The notes under the pieces are model-generated. The model ran no database searches. It worked only from the letters and a program-made list of their open reading frames with translations, and was not told the DNA's origin. The translations under genes were made by a program, and so were the position numbers. Shown here one piece after another: positions 15,513-30,052 of a DNA stretch of 32,434 nt. How positions within the stretch are numbered: position 1 is the first letter of the stretch; each line of letters starts with the position of its first letter. Origin of the DNA: Oxalobacteraceae bacterium (GTDB lineage: Bacteria; Pseudomonadota; Gammaproteobacteria; Burkholderiales; Burkholderiaceae_D); the NCBI GenBank assembly GCA_021298555.1, contig JAJTGE010000037.1:1-32434 (forward strand), read 5' to 3'.

Positions 15513-16373
15513 TTAGCCCACATGTCCAGCTACCTGGGATGCAAAGGATGAGCTACCTTCACTAGCCTCACTCCAAATACTGCGCTGCGCACCCAGTGCT
15601 CCTAGTGCCCCACCAATTACGCTGAGCGCAATAGAAATTACTATGGCCACGAAGGTAGTCCATGAGGCTACTCGAAAGTCTTTCACAACTTGGGCAGCTG
15701 CAGCTCTTCCCTCTGGCGATGCTTGTTCTGACGAGCCAGAAAGAATCAAGGCTTCATCTATTACCGTAGCAGCACGTTCGCGTTGAACATTCATCGTGTT
15801 GTTCAAATAATTAATCGCCTGATCTCGCCGTCCGGACAGTATGTATTCTTGCAATGTGCGTAAAGCAGATGATTCCATATTCGGGCCTAACTGCCGAGTC
15901 AACATACTGGCTACATTGGCGCCCGAGGGCGTGACCACTACCCCACCCTGTATAAGATTTGACACAAGACCAGAGATTAATGAGCCACCGGTCGTTGTAG
16001 CGAGAATTAATGCCAGCATGACTGAGACTGCCCAACAAATAACACCATGCAGCATTCCATCCACTTTGCGCCGCAAGCCTGACAGGCGACCAGCAACATA
16101 GGAACCTACAAACGCTGCGATCAACATAGAACAACAAGCCCAGATAAGTGCGCCTACGCCAGGAATTTCACCCAGAGAGATATTGACCAATGCCAGTCCA
16201 CTAGCTACACCCAGCATCATTAATACCAACTGCACTGATATAGCTATGCTGACCCCGGCAAGTACAGCACTCCAGCGTATAGGAGGGAATAAGCTTCCTC
16301 TTACAGGATTTTTATGGTGCGCACCCTCTTCCGCTGTTTTTTCTGTACCACCTTCAATTGATAAGGTCTTCAT
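15513..16373 (-). CDS. Multi-pass inner-membrane protein of unknown function
   Basis: 286 residues with hydrophobic segments near 33-64, 72-97, 108-135 and 238-265. These are glycine/alanine-rich and separated by a long polar loop (about 140-235) that is probably outside the membrane. The start of the first segment (RWSAVLAGVSIAI) resembles a widespread family of uncharacterised bacterial membrane proteins; I do not recognise a function. The ATG at 16373 has AAGGAG 6 bases upstream. It lies 56 bases after the lipoprotein gene and probably shares its transcript. Confidence 0.8.
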   Translation of the reverse strand: MKTLSIEGGTEKTAEEGAHHKNPVRGSLFPPIRWSAVLAGVSIAISVQLVLMMLGVASGLALVNISLGEIPGVGALIWACCSMLIAAFVGSYVAGRLSGLRRKVDGMLHGVICWAVSVMLALILATTTGGSLISGLVSNLIQGGVVVTPSGANVASMLTRQLGPNMESSALRTLQEYILSGRRDQAINYLNNTMNVQRERAATVIDEALILSGSSEQASPEGRAAAAQVVKDFRVASWTTFVAIVISIALSVIGGALGALGAQRSIWSEASEGSSSFASQVAGHVG

Positions 16374-16429
16374 CAATATCTCCTTGTAGAATCAATCAAC
16401 TATAAATCACGCAGTAAACCAACAAATTT

Positions 16430-19245: not shown

Positions 19246-19390
19246 AGGTCAGGGAGATGCTAATTAATTGCGTATTTTAAAGCGAGCCAGCATTGCTATA
19301 CGACGCGTTGACATGCAAATAAAAAGCTCAGCGTCGGTCCATTAATCGAGAACCATCTGGTTATTTAATCAGTGCTTCCTATGCTATTTG

Positions 19391-22940: not shown

Positions 22941-23999
22941 ATGAAAACACTACCCTCACACATTCGGCTTGATAACCAGTTTAGTATTCAAAAATTGGAA
23001 GATTTTCTGAAATCAAATGATCCCAATGAGTCTAAGGCCATCTTCGCTGGAAAAAATACTCTCGGCGTTATGCTTTTGCATCGCTTGCCCACACAGTCGG
23101 ACAACAAACTAGCACGCCTAGGTTATTTCCTTCGATTTGGCTCTGAACGAAATCAAGTTCGGCAAGAAATCAAGAGCTTTCTAAAAGATAAGGGTATCGA
23201 GTTGACCGCCGATATACGCAAAGCTTTACCTAGTCGTTTCAGCGCTGGTAGTGCAAAGGGTCTAATGGATGCCTTAAAAAGAGCGTCGGTCAAGGAGGAA
23301 TTTGTAATTAGCAGTTTCGGGAGCACCTTAGAAAATTTGGATTGGAACACGCTAAAAGATGCAAAAAGCCTTAGCCGAGAGAATTCTTTAGGTATGACCG
23401 CACCCGCGCGCGTTAATGAATTAAATTTTTCTGCACAGGCAAAAACCATAGCCAACGATGTGAAAGACCAAGTAAAAGCAGTACTCGACCAAGGTCATGA
23501 TAAAGATCTCGCCATGGTGGCGGGCTACAACGCACTGATTAAACAGGTGAAAGAAATAGAAATTAATCCTTCATTTTCAAACGTTGTGAAAGGAATGCAC
23601 AGAGAGGTCGATAGGGTGATGGCAGAAAAGCTTAATAATACGCCTGCCGATAAACACCAAGCAATCAAGGAGTTCGGCGAAACCTGCAAAAAAAATATTA
23701 TCCCTTCACTGGTGTTACGTACGCTAGTCTCAGCACTGTTTAATGAATTAGCTGCAGAACGAAAAAATGAGCCCAAAGCCGATGGCTCGGAGACACTGCT
23801 GAGCAAGGGGGTCGACGTGGTTCAATTCACTCAACAGCTACAGAAACAACTCAATGAAGAGGCTAATGGGAAACCCATGACGGACAAGAAAACTAATGCT
23901 AAGGAGGCATTTCCGGAATTCTCTAAGCTCGTTGCTAAATACAATACTGAGCTAAGTCTGACAAACGCGATCGAGGCTAAAATATTTTCGTCATCGTGA
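22941..23999 (+). CDS. Unrecognised soluble, helix-rich protein (orphan)
   Basis: 352 residues. I recognise no domain, signal peptide or transmembrane helix. The protein is polar and probably mostly alpha-helical, rich in Lys, Asn, Glu and Ser. It has LARLGYFLRFGSERNQVRQE near residue 58, a central helical part (IANDVKDQVKAVLDQGHDKD) and a C-terminal charged part (FTQQLQKQLNEEANGKP). It stands alone on the plus strand between typA and truB and meets the truB stop three bases away. Reading frame and length make a real gene likely, although no ribosome binding site stands out. A secreted effector-like protein is possible but unsupported. Confidence 0.65.
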   Translation: MKTLPSHIRLDNQFSIQKLEDFLKSNDPNESKAIFAGKNTLGVMLLHRLPTQSDNKLARLGYFLRFGSERNQVRQEIKSFLKDKGIELTADIRKALPSRFSAGSAKGLMDALKRASVKEEFVISSFGSTLENLDWNTLKDAKSLSRENSLGMTAPARVNELNFSAQAKTIANDVKDQVKAVLDQGHDKDLAMVAGYNALIKQVKEIEINPSFSNVVKGMHREVDRVMAEKLNNTPADKHQAIKEFGETCKKNIIPSLVLRTLVSALFNELAAERKNEPKADGSETLLSKGVDVVQFTQQLQKQLNEEANGKPMTDKKTNAKEAFPEFSKLVAKYNTELSLTNAIEAKIFSSS

Positions 24000-24002
24000 G
24001 GA

Positions 24003-24941
24003 TTAAATCGCTGATACAGACACCAATCGCTGTGGCGAGAGCACTCCACGCACATCAAGCAGTGCTACGCCTAGCAAGGCTGCATCTACGGCACGATACA
24101 CACGAACAAGTACCGTTGTTTCATCTGTTGATTGCACGCCTACACACACGACGCCGGGTATGCGCTGACCATGCATAAACCGCTGGGCAAGTTCCTCAGT
24201 CAAACGAAGTTCAGGTAGATCCGCAAGTAATGCATCCACCGGCAATAGGGACTGCATGCGTGCTACATCAGTTAACGCGGTGAAGCTGGGAAGGCTGATA
24301 GATTGCAGCAAGTCCAAGGTTCCCACGCTGGTTCGGCGCAATGCTGTCAGATGTGCACCGCAACCCAAGGCATGGCCTATGTCTTCTCCCAGCACGCGTA
24401 TGTAGGTGCCCTTGCTACAACGCACTCTAATCTTCACATCAGGTGATGCGAATTCTAGTAATTCGAGTTCGTAAATAACGATCTCACGCGCCTCACGCTC
24501 AAGCACCACACCTTCACGTGCGTATTCATAGAGTGGCTTGCCATCGCGCTTTAACGCGGAATGCATAGGTGGTATCTGTGTAATGGCTCCGCGAAATTGT
24601 TGAAGTACTTTTTCTATCTGCTCGCGCGTTACAGCTACGGTTTTAGTCTCGGTGATGTCACCCTCGGTATCGGCCGTCGTAGTGGTAACGCCCAAATGCA
24701 CAGTGGCTACATAGGTTTTGTCGGCATTCAACAAGTCTTGCGCAAACTTGGTGGCTTCACCAAAACACAAAGGGAGTAGACCTGTAGCAAATGGATCGAG
24801 AGTTCCGGTATGACCTGCTTTTTCAGCATTTAATAAACGCTTGGCCACACTCAGTGCTTGAGTGCTCGATAGTCCTTCAGGTTTATCCAGCAGCAGTACG
24901 CCATGCACAGGTACACGCTTACTTTTTACAAGGCGATTCAT
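24003..24941 (-). CDS. truB: tRNA pseudouridine-55 synthase
   Basis: Makes pseudouridine at position 55 in the T-loop of tRNAs. The 312-residue protein has LLLDKPEGLSST (17-28), GHTGTLDPFATGLLP with catalytic Asp49, the substrate-binding RCSKGTYIRVLGEDIG, and a short PUA-like C-terminal domain. It follows rbfA after 14 bases. In many gammaproteobacteria rpsO and pnp follow truB; here the next gene is the convergent orphan instead. Confidence 0.95.
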   Translation of the reverse strand: MNRLVKSKRVPVHGVLLLDKPEGLSSTQALSVAKRLLNAEKAGHTGTLDPFATGLLPLCFGEATKFAQDLLNADKTYVATVHLGVTTTTADTEGDITETKTVAVTREQIEKVLQQFRGAITQIPPMHSALKRDGKPLYEYAREGVVLEREAREIVIYELELLEFASPDVKIRVRCSKGTYIRVLGEDIGHALGCGAHLTALRRTSVGTLDLLQSISLPSFTALTDVARMQSLLPVDALLADLPELRLTEELAQRFMHGQRIPGVVCVGVQSTDETTVLVRVYRAVDAALLGVALLDVRGVLSPQRLVSVSAI

Positions 24942-25400: not shown

Positions 25401-28106
25401 TTACAGCGAACGAGCGACTTCCTGAACTTCGAAGACCTCAAGCTGATCACCTTCTTTGATGTCGTTATAGTTTTTGAGTGACAAACCGCACTCAAAACCA
25501 GATTTGACTTCCTTTGCATCGTCTTTGAAGCGCTTGAGCGAATCAAGTTCACCTGTCCAAATGACGACGTTATCGCGCAGTAAACGAACATGAGCGCCGC
25601 GCTTAACTAAACCTTCAAGTACGTAACAGCCCGCAATCGCACCCACTTTGCTGACCATGAAGACCTGACGAATTTCAACCAGACCCAACGCATGTTCGCG
25701 CTTCTCTGGCGAGAGCATGCCACTCATAGCAGCTTTGATCTCATCGATCGCATCGTAAATGATGTTGTAGTAGCGAATATCGATGCCGCTGGATTCGGCC
25801 AATTTACGCGCAGAGGCATCGGCACGAACATTAAAGCCTATGATGACTGCCTTGGATGCCAATGCCAGGTTGACATCAGATTCACTAATGCCACCAACTG
25901 CAGCATGCACGACTTGTACACGCACTTCGGAGGTCGATAGTTTTTGCATCGATGCGACCAATGCTTCTTGCGAACCTTGGACATCGGCTTTGATAATCAA
26001 TGCCAGATTTTTGACTTCGCCTTCGGTCATTTGCTCGAACATATTTTCGAGCTTTGCGGCTTGTTGCTTGGCCAGCTTCACATCACGATATTTACCTTGT
26101 CTAAACAAAGCAATCTCGCGGGCTTTACGTTCATCCGCTAACACCATGACTTCTTCACCGGCTGCCGGCACTTCAGTCAGACCCTGTATCTCTACAGGTA
26201 TGGAGGGTCCGGCTTCGGTAATCGGTTTGCCGTTTTCATCGAGCATGGCACGAACACGACCATACGACGATCCAGCCAAGACTATGTCGCCACGCTTTAA
26301 TGTGCCCGACTGAATCATTATGGTCGCAACCGGACCACGGCCCTTGTCGAGCTTGGCTTCAATGACCAAGCCCTTAGCTGGGGTCTCAATGGGTGCCTTG
26401 AGTTCAAGAATTTCTGCTTGCAGCAGTACGTTTTCCAGCAAGGTATCAATGCCCTCGCCAGTTTTGGCTGACACTGCAATAAACGGCGACTCGCCACCGT
26501 ACTCTTCAGGAACAACTTGCTCTGCAATCAGTTCGGTTTTAACGCGATCGGGATTGGAACCGGGTTTGTCGATTTTGTTAATCGCAACCACTAGGGGCAC
26601 ACCCGCTGCTTTAGCATGCGCAATCGCTTCACGCGTTTGCGGCATGACGCCATCATCTGCAGCTACGACCAAAATAACAATGTCGGTAGCTTTTGCACCA
26701 CGCGCACGCATAGCCGTAAATGCTTCGTGACCTGGTGTATCGAGGAAGGTAATCATGCCTCGCGGTGTTTCAACGTGATAAGCACCAATATGCTGAGTAA
26801 TACCACCGGCTTCACCAGAGGCTACTTTTGCTCGTCGTATGTAGTCGAGCAGAGAAGTTTTACCGTGATCAACGTGTCCCATCACCGTGACCACAGGCGC
26901 ACGCGGCAATGTTTCAGCATCTGTATGCTCTACACCAAAATCTAGCAGCGCTTCAGGATCATCCAGTTTGGCAGCATGAGCAAGGTGACCCATTTCTTCT
27001 ACCAGAATCATGGCTGTTTCTTGATCGAGCACTTGATTGATGGTGACCATTTGACCGAGCTTCATCAATTGCTTAATCACCTCAGATGCCTTGACTGCCA
27101 TCTTGTGAGCTAACTCGGCCACTGTAATAGTTTCGGGAACGTGTACTTCACGCACCACTGCTTCGGTAGGCTGCTGAAAATTTGTTTCGCGATCGTCGTT
27201 TTGTGAACTACGACGGCCTTTGGGGCCGGCACGCCATCCATCACGCCCAGCACCCGCTGGAGCACCGCGCGTCTTTAAACCACCTGGGCTACGTTTTTTC
27301 GCTTCATCTTGCCAAGTAGAAGATACGTTTGCAGACTTGATGGATTTCTTCTCACCAGGCTTTTTCTCTTCTTTCTTTTCTACTGGCTTTTTATCGCCTG
27401 GGCGATGCAGCGTGCCCTCTGCACGAACCGGTTCGGGGGCTTTGATAACTTTGCGCGGCGTAGTCATCATGGCTTTGATCTGCGCCACTTCGTCGGCTAC
27501 CGCTTTACGCGCTTCTTCTGCTGCGACAACACGTGCAGAGCTTTCTTGGGCACCGCGCAGTGCAGATTCCTGCACTTCGGCGATTTCACTGGAAACTGCA
27601 GCTTCGGCAGCAGCACTGGCACGAAGTGCTTCTTCTCGCTCGGCTTCGAGTTTTGCCAGACGTTCTTGTTTCTCTAGTAAATCGGCTTCTTGTCGTGCGA
27701 TGAACTCCGCTTGACGACGTGCTTCTTCATCACGACGAGCTTGTTCAGCTTCATCAATAACACTTGTTTTTACAGGCTCGACTTCCTGCACAGGCGCGGC
27801 ATCCTCGCGTTTAACGAAGGTGCGCTTTTTGCGAACTTCAACTTGAATAGTGCGTGATTTACCGCTTGAATCAGCTTGCTTGATTTCAGTGGTTTCCTTG
27901 CGCGTCAGCGTGATTTTCTTTTTTTCTCCATCCGCTGCAGCACCATGAACCTTGCGCAAATGACCGAGCAATTTATCCTTGTCTTCTTTGGATAATTGAT
28001 CATCAGTCGAACTCTTTTCGACGCCCGCGGCTTTGAGTTGCTTTAGAAGCAAATCAGCCGGCATCTTTAGTTCGGTGGCAAATTGGGCTACATTGTTGCT
28101 TGCCAT
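25401..28106 (-). CDS. infB: Translation initiation factor IF-2
   Basis: GTPase that brings initiator tRNA to the 30S subunit. The 901-residue protein has an IF2_N domain at 1-55, a long charged linker with a predicted coiled coil at about 115-215 (alanine, glutamate and arginine rich), a second N-domain ([19 protein letters not shown]) near 323, and the G domain with GHVDHGKT at 410-417, [15 protein letters not shown] and NKIDKPG. Domains II-IV end at [15 protein letters not shown] precedes the ATG at 28106. It lies 49 bases downstream of nusA in the same operon. Confidence 0.97.
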
Positions 28107-28155: not shown

Positions 28156-29523
28156 TTACTTGCTTTCGGCAAGACTCCAGACACGCGACTGCAACTCTTT
28201 GGCATGATCGTCGTAACGTCCATCGATCAGCTTCATTTCGTCGTCCGTCACATCCTTGAATTCTTCATCAATCAGTTGACGCGCACGCTCAGTGGGTAAA
28301 GCGAGGATTGCTCCAAACTCGTCATAAGCGAGAGCCGCAAATGCGTCTAAGGATTTGATTCCAGCCAGACCCAGCTTGCCAGCGGTCGTGCGATCCATAC
28401 CTTCCAGATTGAGCAGCGCTTCTTCCATGCCCTCGAGTCCTTCTTCTGAAGCAATCGCTTCAGTTACCAAAGCATCGCGTGCACGATTACGTAGCTCATT
28501 GATGGTTTCTTCATCAAACGCTTCGATATCGAGCATTTCAGAAATCGGCACGTACGCGATTTCTTCTAAGGTGGAGAAACCTTCTTGAGCCAGGATCTCT
28601 GCGACTTCTTCATCAACATCTAATTTTTCAACAAACAAATTACGAATAACAGCTGTTTCAGAGGCCACTTTGTCGGCAGATTCTTCTGCTGTCATGATGT
28701 TGATTTGCCATCCGGTCAACTCGCTGGCTAAACGTACATTTTGTCCGCCTCGACCTATAGCAATCGCCAGATTCTCTTCATCGACAACCACATCCATGGC
28801 GTGCTTGTCTTCATCAACAACAATGGAGGAGACATTGGCAGGGGCCAGTGCGCCGATAACAAACTGCGCAGGATCATCCGACCACAGCACGATATCTACG
28901 CGCTCTCCACCTAACTCGCCCGTGACGCTCTGTACGCGGGAGCCACGCATACCTACACAGGTTCCGATAGGGTCAATACGTTTATCAGCGGTGAAAACTG
29001 CAATCTTGGCTCGTACTCCTGGATCACGCGCAGCCGATTTAATCAGCAGTAAACCCTGTTCTATTTCAGGAACTTCAAGCTCAAATAGTTTGGTAATGAA
29101 ATCCGGCGCAGTACGGGAAAGTATGACTTGAGGACCGCGAGCATTACGATCTATGCGAAGTATGTAGGCACGAACACGGTCGCCTATACGAAGGTTTTCT
29201 TTGGGAATCATCTGGTCACGAGGCAGACGAGCCTCGATCTTGCCGGACTCAACTATTGCATCACCACGTTCCATACGTTTGATGGTGCCGGTAACCAGTG
29301 CATCACCGCGGTCAAGGAAATCTGAAAGTATCTGTTCGCGCTCTGCGTCACGAATACGCTGCAGCACAACTTGCTTAGTATCCTGGGCAAACCGACGACC
29401 GAATTCTACGGATTCGATGGCCTCTTCTATGTGATCATCAACTTCGATATCTTCAATCTGTTCTTTAGCTTCGAACAGTAAAATTTCTTGGTCGGGCAGC
29501 TGCAGACCCGCCTCATCTGGCAC
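28156..29523 (-). CDS. nusA: Transcription factor NusA, open frame lacking its normal N-terminus
   Basis: Binds RNA polymerase and RNA to control pausing, termination and antitermination. The open frame from the first usable start, a GTG at 29523, encodes 455 residues with an S1 domain ([13 protein letters not shown]), KH1/KH2 domains ([32 protein letters not shown]) and two C-terminal acidic repeats. Family homology continues upstream of the GTG in the same frame to about 29664 but has no ATG, GTG or TTG start; the first ~15 family residues are absent. From the GTG, most of the RNA-polymerase-binding N-terminal domain would be lost. See the junction feature at 29524-29664. Confidence 0.85.
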
Positions 29524-29664
29524 AACATGCCAGCGACGGAAAGTTTCGAACTCGCCTGTATCGCGATCAATCGCAACACGAATATCAACGTCACCTTGAT
29601 AACGTTTTTTAGTAGCCTGTGCGAGGGCGTGCTCAAGCGCACTAAAGACAACTTCTTTGTTCAG
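29524..29664 (-). pseudogene. nusA: NusA N-terminal coding remnant fused out of frame to rimP
   Basis: In the nusA frame this stretch reads [20 protein letters not shown], then a run up to [12 protein letters not shown], which is normal NusA sequence from about family residue 16 on. Before it the frame reads [12 protein letters not shown] and meets a TGA near 29724. That upstream DNA is the rimP gene in another frame. So the NusA start, the rimP-nusA spacer and the rimP 3' end are missing. The likely joint is near 29655-29670, where CCTGAAC could belong to either side. Whether it is a natural deletion or an assembly error cannot be decided from the sequence. Confidence 0.75.
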
Positions 29665-30052
29665 GCTCGTGCAGCAAACCCTGGAAGGATTTGCGATTTG
29701 CAGCTCCAGGCATGGGCGCCCTCAATTTGACGGTAGCTTCGTGGCCTGCAAACCGAACGTAATCTGAAAATTTTTTCAGTGGGCGATCCAGACCAGGCGA
29801 AGACACTTCCAAACGCTCATAGTTCGCGTTCTCCACCGTGAGTACATGCAGAAGCTGGTGAGTGACTGTTTCGCAATCTTCCACGGTTACTGCGCGATCG
29901 AGTTCAACGGGCACATCAATGAACACTCGGAGTAGACCGCGTGCTGCGTGCTCAAAGTCCACTAGCTCATAACCTAAACCAGTAACCGTTTTTTCAATTA
30001 ACGCTGACAAAACCAAACCACGCTCCTGCTGAGCTTCTTCACCCAGAGACAC
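29642..30052 (-). CDS. rimP: Ribosome maturation factor RimP, C-terminally truncated
   Basis: Needed for efficient 30S maturation. The N-terminal domain ([16 protein letters not shown]) and the signature [14 protein letters not shown] are intact. After [12 protein letters not shown] the normal SH3-like C-terminal part (about 30 residues in E. coli RimP) is missing; the frame runs into nusA DNA and stops at a TAG at 29644-29642. The frame opens with a GTG at 30052, but a TTG at 30016 preceded by AGGAG at 6 bases is the better-supported start. Confidence 0.85.

Follow-up and report, generated by a model that had tools for sequence, protein, structure and literature searches.

Unmarked loss of the rimP-nusA border in an Oxalobacteraceae draft genome: a probable assembly artefact

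In the draft genome of an Oxalobacteraceae bacterium, the genes rimP and nusA meet at a joint at which the end of the one and the start of the other are absent, which raises the question of whether the organism itself lives with a truncated NusA or whether the border between the two genes was lost when the genome was assembled. The window, by which we mean the whole stretch of DNA analysed, is contig C32, positions 1-32434, of this genome (G000), and the reference for most comparisons is G003, the closest relative among the genomes compared, which belongs to the same genus, has a NusA 95% identical to that of the window and carries its rimP-nusA pair at locus L004. Our answer, with a probability of roughly 94% and resting on sequence comparison, is that the joint is an assembly artefact. 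The features concerned are as follows.

29659..29661, minus strand: the joint, at which 172 bases of G003 are absent, with about 1 base of ambiguity (from blastn with positions counted by eye, and from codon context in relatives).
29642..30052, minus strand: rimP without its last ~40 codons, the stop being reached in the wrong frame past the joint; the start is uncertain (GTG of the mechanical open reading frame).
28156..29664, minus strand: nusA without its first 18 codons (from the reading frame, comparison with relatives, and a NusA_N match that begins at profile position 15 of 119).
29521..29523, minus strand: the first ATG, GTG or TTG in the NusA frame, a GTG (from the list of open reading frames).

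The preliminary description of this DNA held that rimP and nusA are joined by an internal loss, with NusA homology beginning at about 29664 in a frame other than that of RimP, and both statements are borne out by the reading frames and by blastn against G003. The RimP frame ends at a TAG (29644-29642, minus strand), and the NusA frame, read from 29664, is open through the joint for 521 codons. Alignment to a close relative, which had been proposed as the means of measuring the missing length, gives 172 bases, and the flanks on both sides align right up to the joint. The segment comprises RimP residues ~129-168 (~40 residues, rather than the ~30 first estimated; RimP of G003 has 168 residues), the overlap of the rimP stop and the nusA start in the sequence ATGA, and NusA residues 1-18 (rather than ~15); the spacer that was thought to be lost does not exist in G003, where this overlap forms the border. 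It was also stated that no ATG, GTG or TTG occurs in the NusA frame before residue ~55, and while such codons are indeed absent, the first of them, the GTG at 29523, corresponds to residue 65 in the numbering of G003. Thus, gene order, orientation and the sequence on either side of the joint are common to the window and to the ordinary rimP-nusA pairs of G003 and other Oxalobacteraceae, the family to which most of the nearest named relatives by NusA belong, and what distinguishes the window is the absence of 172 bases at the gene border.

As written, both gene products fall short of what a functional protein is expected to have, NusA lacking both a start codon and a complete N-terminal domain (the NusA_N match of G003 begins at profile position 1) and RimP lacking a complete C-terminal SH3 domain. 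The latter (PF17384) is matched in the window over positions 1-35 of 70, below the cut-off, and at L004 over positions 1-69; RimP_N is complete in the window. An ATG stands at NusA residue 1 in 107 of 110 nusA loci (a set of 30, the window's own included, and a set of 80, between which species may repeat), and the three loci without a scored ATG are the window itself, a fragment at a contig edge (L027) and a divergent locus (L028) whose N-terminus lies beyond the alignment. At L007 the ATG is present and rimP is not matched; its contig begins just before nusA. In G017, of the same genus, nusA lies in two pieces on two contigs (L027 on C10, and C125). Codon differences from G003 indicate that purifying selection acted on both genes until recently: the 500 nusA codons past the joint comprise 242 identical, 235 synonymous and 23 nonsynonymous, and the 124 rimP codons comprise 69, 45 and 10, respectively. 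This is as expected if both genes are intact in the cell, although the same pattern would be seen after a very recent real loss.

The rimP-nusA joint is not an isolated case. A 514-kb sample of the genome (21 pieces, the window included) was compared with a 1.35-Mb sample of G003 (22 pieces); 217,957 bases aligned, counting alignments of more than 300 bases, and 9 of the 21 pieces had either no aligned sequence or less than 600 bases. In the aligned part, 11 abrupt losses relative to G003 are observed, that at rimP-nusA included (172, 78, 103, 126, 99, 108, 81, 59, 156, 101 and 88 bases), of which ten touch open reading frames of G003 (the 81-base loss touches none), and five of those ten are not multiples of three. 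A gene-level comparison (tblastn with mechanical open reading frames of at least 100 residues, antisense frames included) found five distinct internal losses (59, 88, 101, 106 and 154 bases) among 243 G003 frames searched against G000, and none among 246 G000 frames searched against G003. The 106-base loss is the 103-base loss of the DNA comparison measured otherwise, and the ~154-base loss, in an AcrB-family gene, was seen at the gene level only, bringing the total to 12 places, 11 of them besides rimP-nusA. With G003 frames against G000, the remaining rows were two single-base shifts and the 88-base loss seen a second time; in the reverse comparison they were one single-base shift and the 101-base loss in mirror image. 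As a control, G003 frames were searched against 55.75 kb of two further genomes of the genus (G016 and G019), and the 44 frame-genome comparisons yielded one -1 shift and no loss. Recurrence at unrelated loci within one assembly, which would mark an artefact, is therefore found, with 11 losses in about 218 kb aligned and one more at the gene level. The further places, ten of which touch open reading frames, show losses of 59-156 bases relative to G003 and lie on these contigs of G000.

C18: ~2803 and ~6062.
C6: ~30986, ~43423 and ~54491.
C3: ~5312 and ~5913.
C20: ~984 and ~17388.
C8: ~5449.
C9: ~98987.

In G003, the genes affected at these places are a HipA-domain gene, an acyl-CoA-dehydrogenase-like gene, rimO, an EnvZ-like kinase gene, hisZ, thrS, the ends of a transporter gene and of a PBP4-like gene, a second acyl-CoA-dehydrogenase gene and bioA, in addition to the AcrB-family gene. 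The G003 proteins encoded by rimO, hisZ, thrS and bioA, together with the EnvZ-like, the two acyl-CoA-dehydrogenase-like and the AcrB-family proteins, fit their family models over nearly the full length without a large insertion, which places the shortness on the side of G000; the matches of the EnvZ-like protein and of both acyl-CoA dehydrogenases fall below the curated model cut-offs. A cell without threonyl-tRNA synthetase is not viable. In the assembly a single thrS scores above the cut-off; the loss divides it between two frames, and it extends as far as the edge of contig C3. A further, third match, weak and below the cut-off, lies on C109 and is probably another class-II synthetase.

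Several observations weigh against an artefact. Six of the 11 loss lengths are multiples of three, which is more than one third. G003 is itself the shorter genome at three places (by 130, 267 and 146 bases), none of which reaches further than the end region of a mechanical open reading frame, and the resulting asymmetry of 11 versus 3 gives 0.057 in a two-sided sign test, that of 5 versus 0 at the gene level giving 0.06 by arithmetic. At the HipA-domain gene, at the PBP4 and transporter gene ends and at the 81-base place, the difference may represent either a loss in G000 or a gain in G003, and the part of the genome that was not assembled could hold a second thrS. Searches of the assembly for a second copy of the missing segment returned only its two flanks, which would be equally true of a real deletion, and NusA_N and the RimP C-terminal domain each have one match there, both at this locus. 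The asymmetry of the losses is weak evidence by itself, and the identity of the cut genes weighs more.

The sequence at the breakpoints offers no sign of a repeat. The heptamer CCTGAAC at the joint had been put forward as possible microhomology; there is no seven-base repeat, however, and the AAC codon is a hybrid. Codon context was sought at 23 loci (L004-L026), and at the 12 of them, all of the same genus, that were readable, NusA residue 19 is GAC (Asp), so that the AAC of the window was made by the joint itself, with about one ambiguous base; on the RimP side, readable in 11 of the 12, the matching codons encode Pro and then Glu or Asp. Within 30 bases of the breakpoints, the longest common string measures 4 bases at rimP-nusA and 4-8 bases at the 11 places, compared with a mean of 5.8 and a maximum of 20 for equally spaced random places. 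These values do not exceed chance, which makes repeat collapse or a repeat-mediated deletion unlikely. Strong hairpins were likewise discarded as a cause (folding energy per base of -0.21 to -0.30 for the 11 lost segments against a control mean of -0.23, standard deviation 0.06), as was odd base composition, the fraction of G plus C being 0.28-0.62 in the lost segments against 0.49 (standard deviation 0.06), with a few outliers and no common direction.

Two readings in which the 172 bases are truly missing from the cell have to be set against an assembly fault. One, which we consider very improbable, is a very recent deletion, carried by the population sampled or by a minor strain picked by the assembler, that inactivated rimP and nusA or left NusA crippled. 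It would agree with the clean joint and with the fact that the missing segment is found nowhere else in the assembly, and one review describes NusA as non-essential in the reduced Escherichia coli strain MDS42 (PMC3382729). The reviews disagree on this point, as another states that complete nusA deletions cannot be constructed and that the viable MDS42 truncation keeps the N-terminal domain (PMC4496710). Since the loss in the window takes the start of precisely that domain, a real loss would be remarkable, and the like losses at 11 further places, one of them in the only detected thrS, make it unnecessary to suppose one.

The other, rated lower still and hardly credible, adds a working rescue to the deletion, with NusA translated from the in-frame CTG at the joint (29664-29662) or as a RimP-NusA fusion through +1 frameshifting at CTT TAG. 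The open NusA frame and the CTG are compatible with the former, and translation shifted by +1 at the rimP stop would indeed continue in the NusA frame, yet all three follow from a blunt joint without selection, such an arrangement occurs in none of the 107 scored relatives, and the recurrent losses account for the joint without any rescue. The CTT TAG terminating the shortened rimP resembles the known prfB shift site but is a chance product of the joint. The preliminary description had left open a real deletion with rescue or an assembly collapse; the rescue finds no support and the breakpoint strings speak against the collapse of a repeat, and it is an assembly fault in the wider sense that the recurrent losses and the split thrS favour.

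Unmarked gaps or misjoins occur in short-read draft genomes, and the losses described here resemble these in being recurrent, blunt, 59-172 bases in length, blind to gene function and largely blind to frame. The state of the draft, with 2.45 Mb in 113 contigs at 81.6% completeness, was also counted in favour of an artefact. In the mechanism that we propose, about 172 bases would have remained unassembled, and the two flanks would have been abutted and the gap closed without the insertion of Ns. Closure of this sort is suggested because read pairs span distances such as the 59-172 bases of these losses. Recurrence of the losses was observed on the sample; we infer their artefactual nature and the involvement of an assembly or scaffolding step. 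In the living organism, rimP and nusA most likely form an ordinary pair that overlaps in the sequence ATGA.

Downstream of nusA lies an open reading frame of 901 residues (25401-28106, minus strand), which, from its place alone, is presumably infB. Elsewhere in the window, the interval 19247-19382, flanked by a dihydrouridine-synthase-family gene and a divergent class-III aminotransferase gene, exceeds its counterpart in G003 by 130 bases, and only ~150 bases of G003 lie opposite 23243-24013. The open reading frames at 22941-23999 (plus strand, 352 residues) and 15513-16376 (minus strand, 287 residues) have no Pfam match at 1e-5. A run of 41 Ns in the sampled part of the genome (C7, position 1404) may be an assembly gap and was not used as evidence.

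The finding brings no change to the biology of rimP and nusA; it is, rather, a caution on the reading of this draft genome. In the part compared, a small unmarked loss occurs about once in every 18-20 kb aligned, and with losses as frequent as this, apparent pseudogenes, missing starts and shortened proteins in this draft are not to be taken as gene decay.
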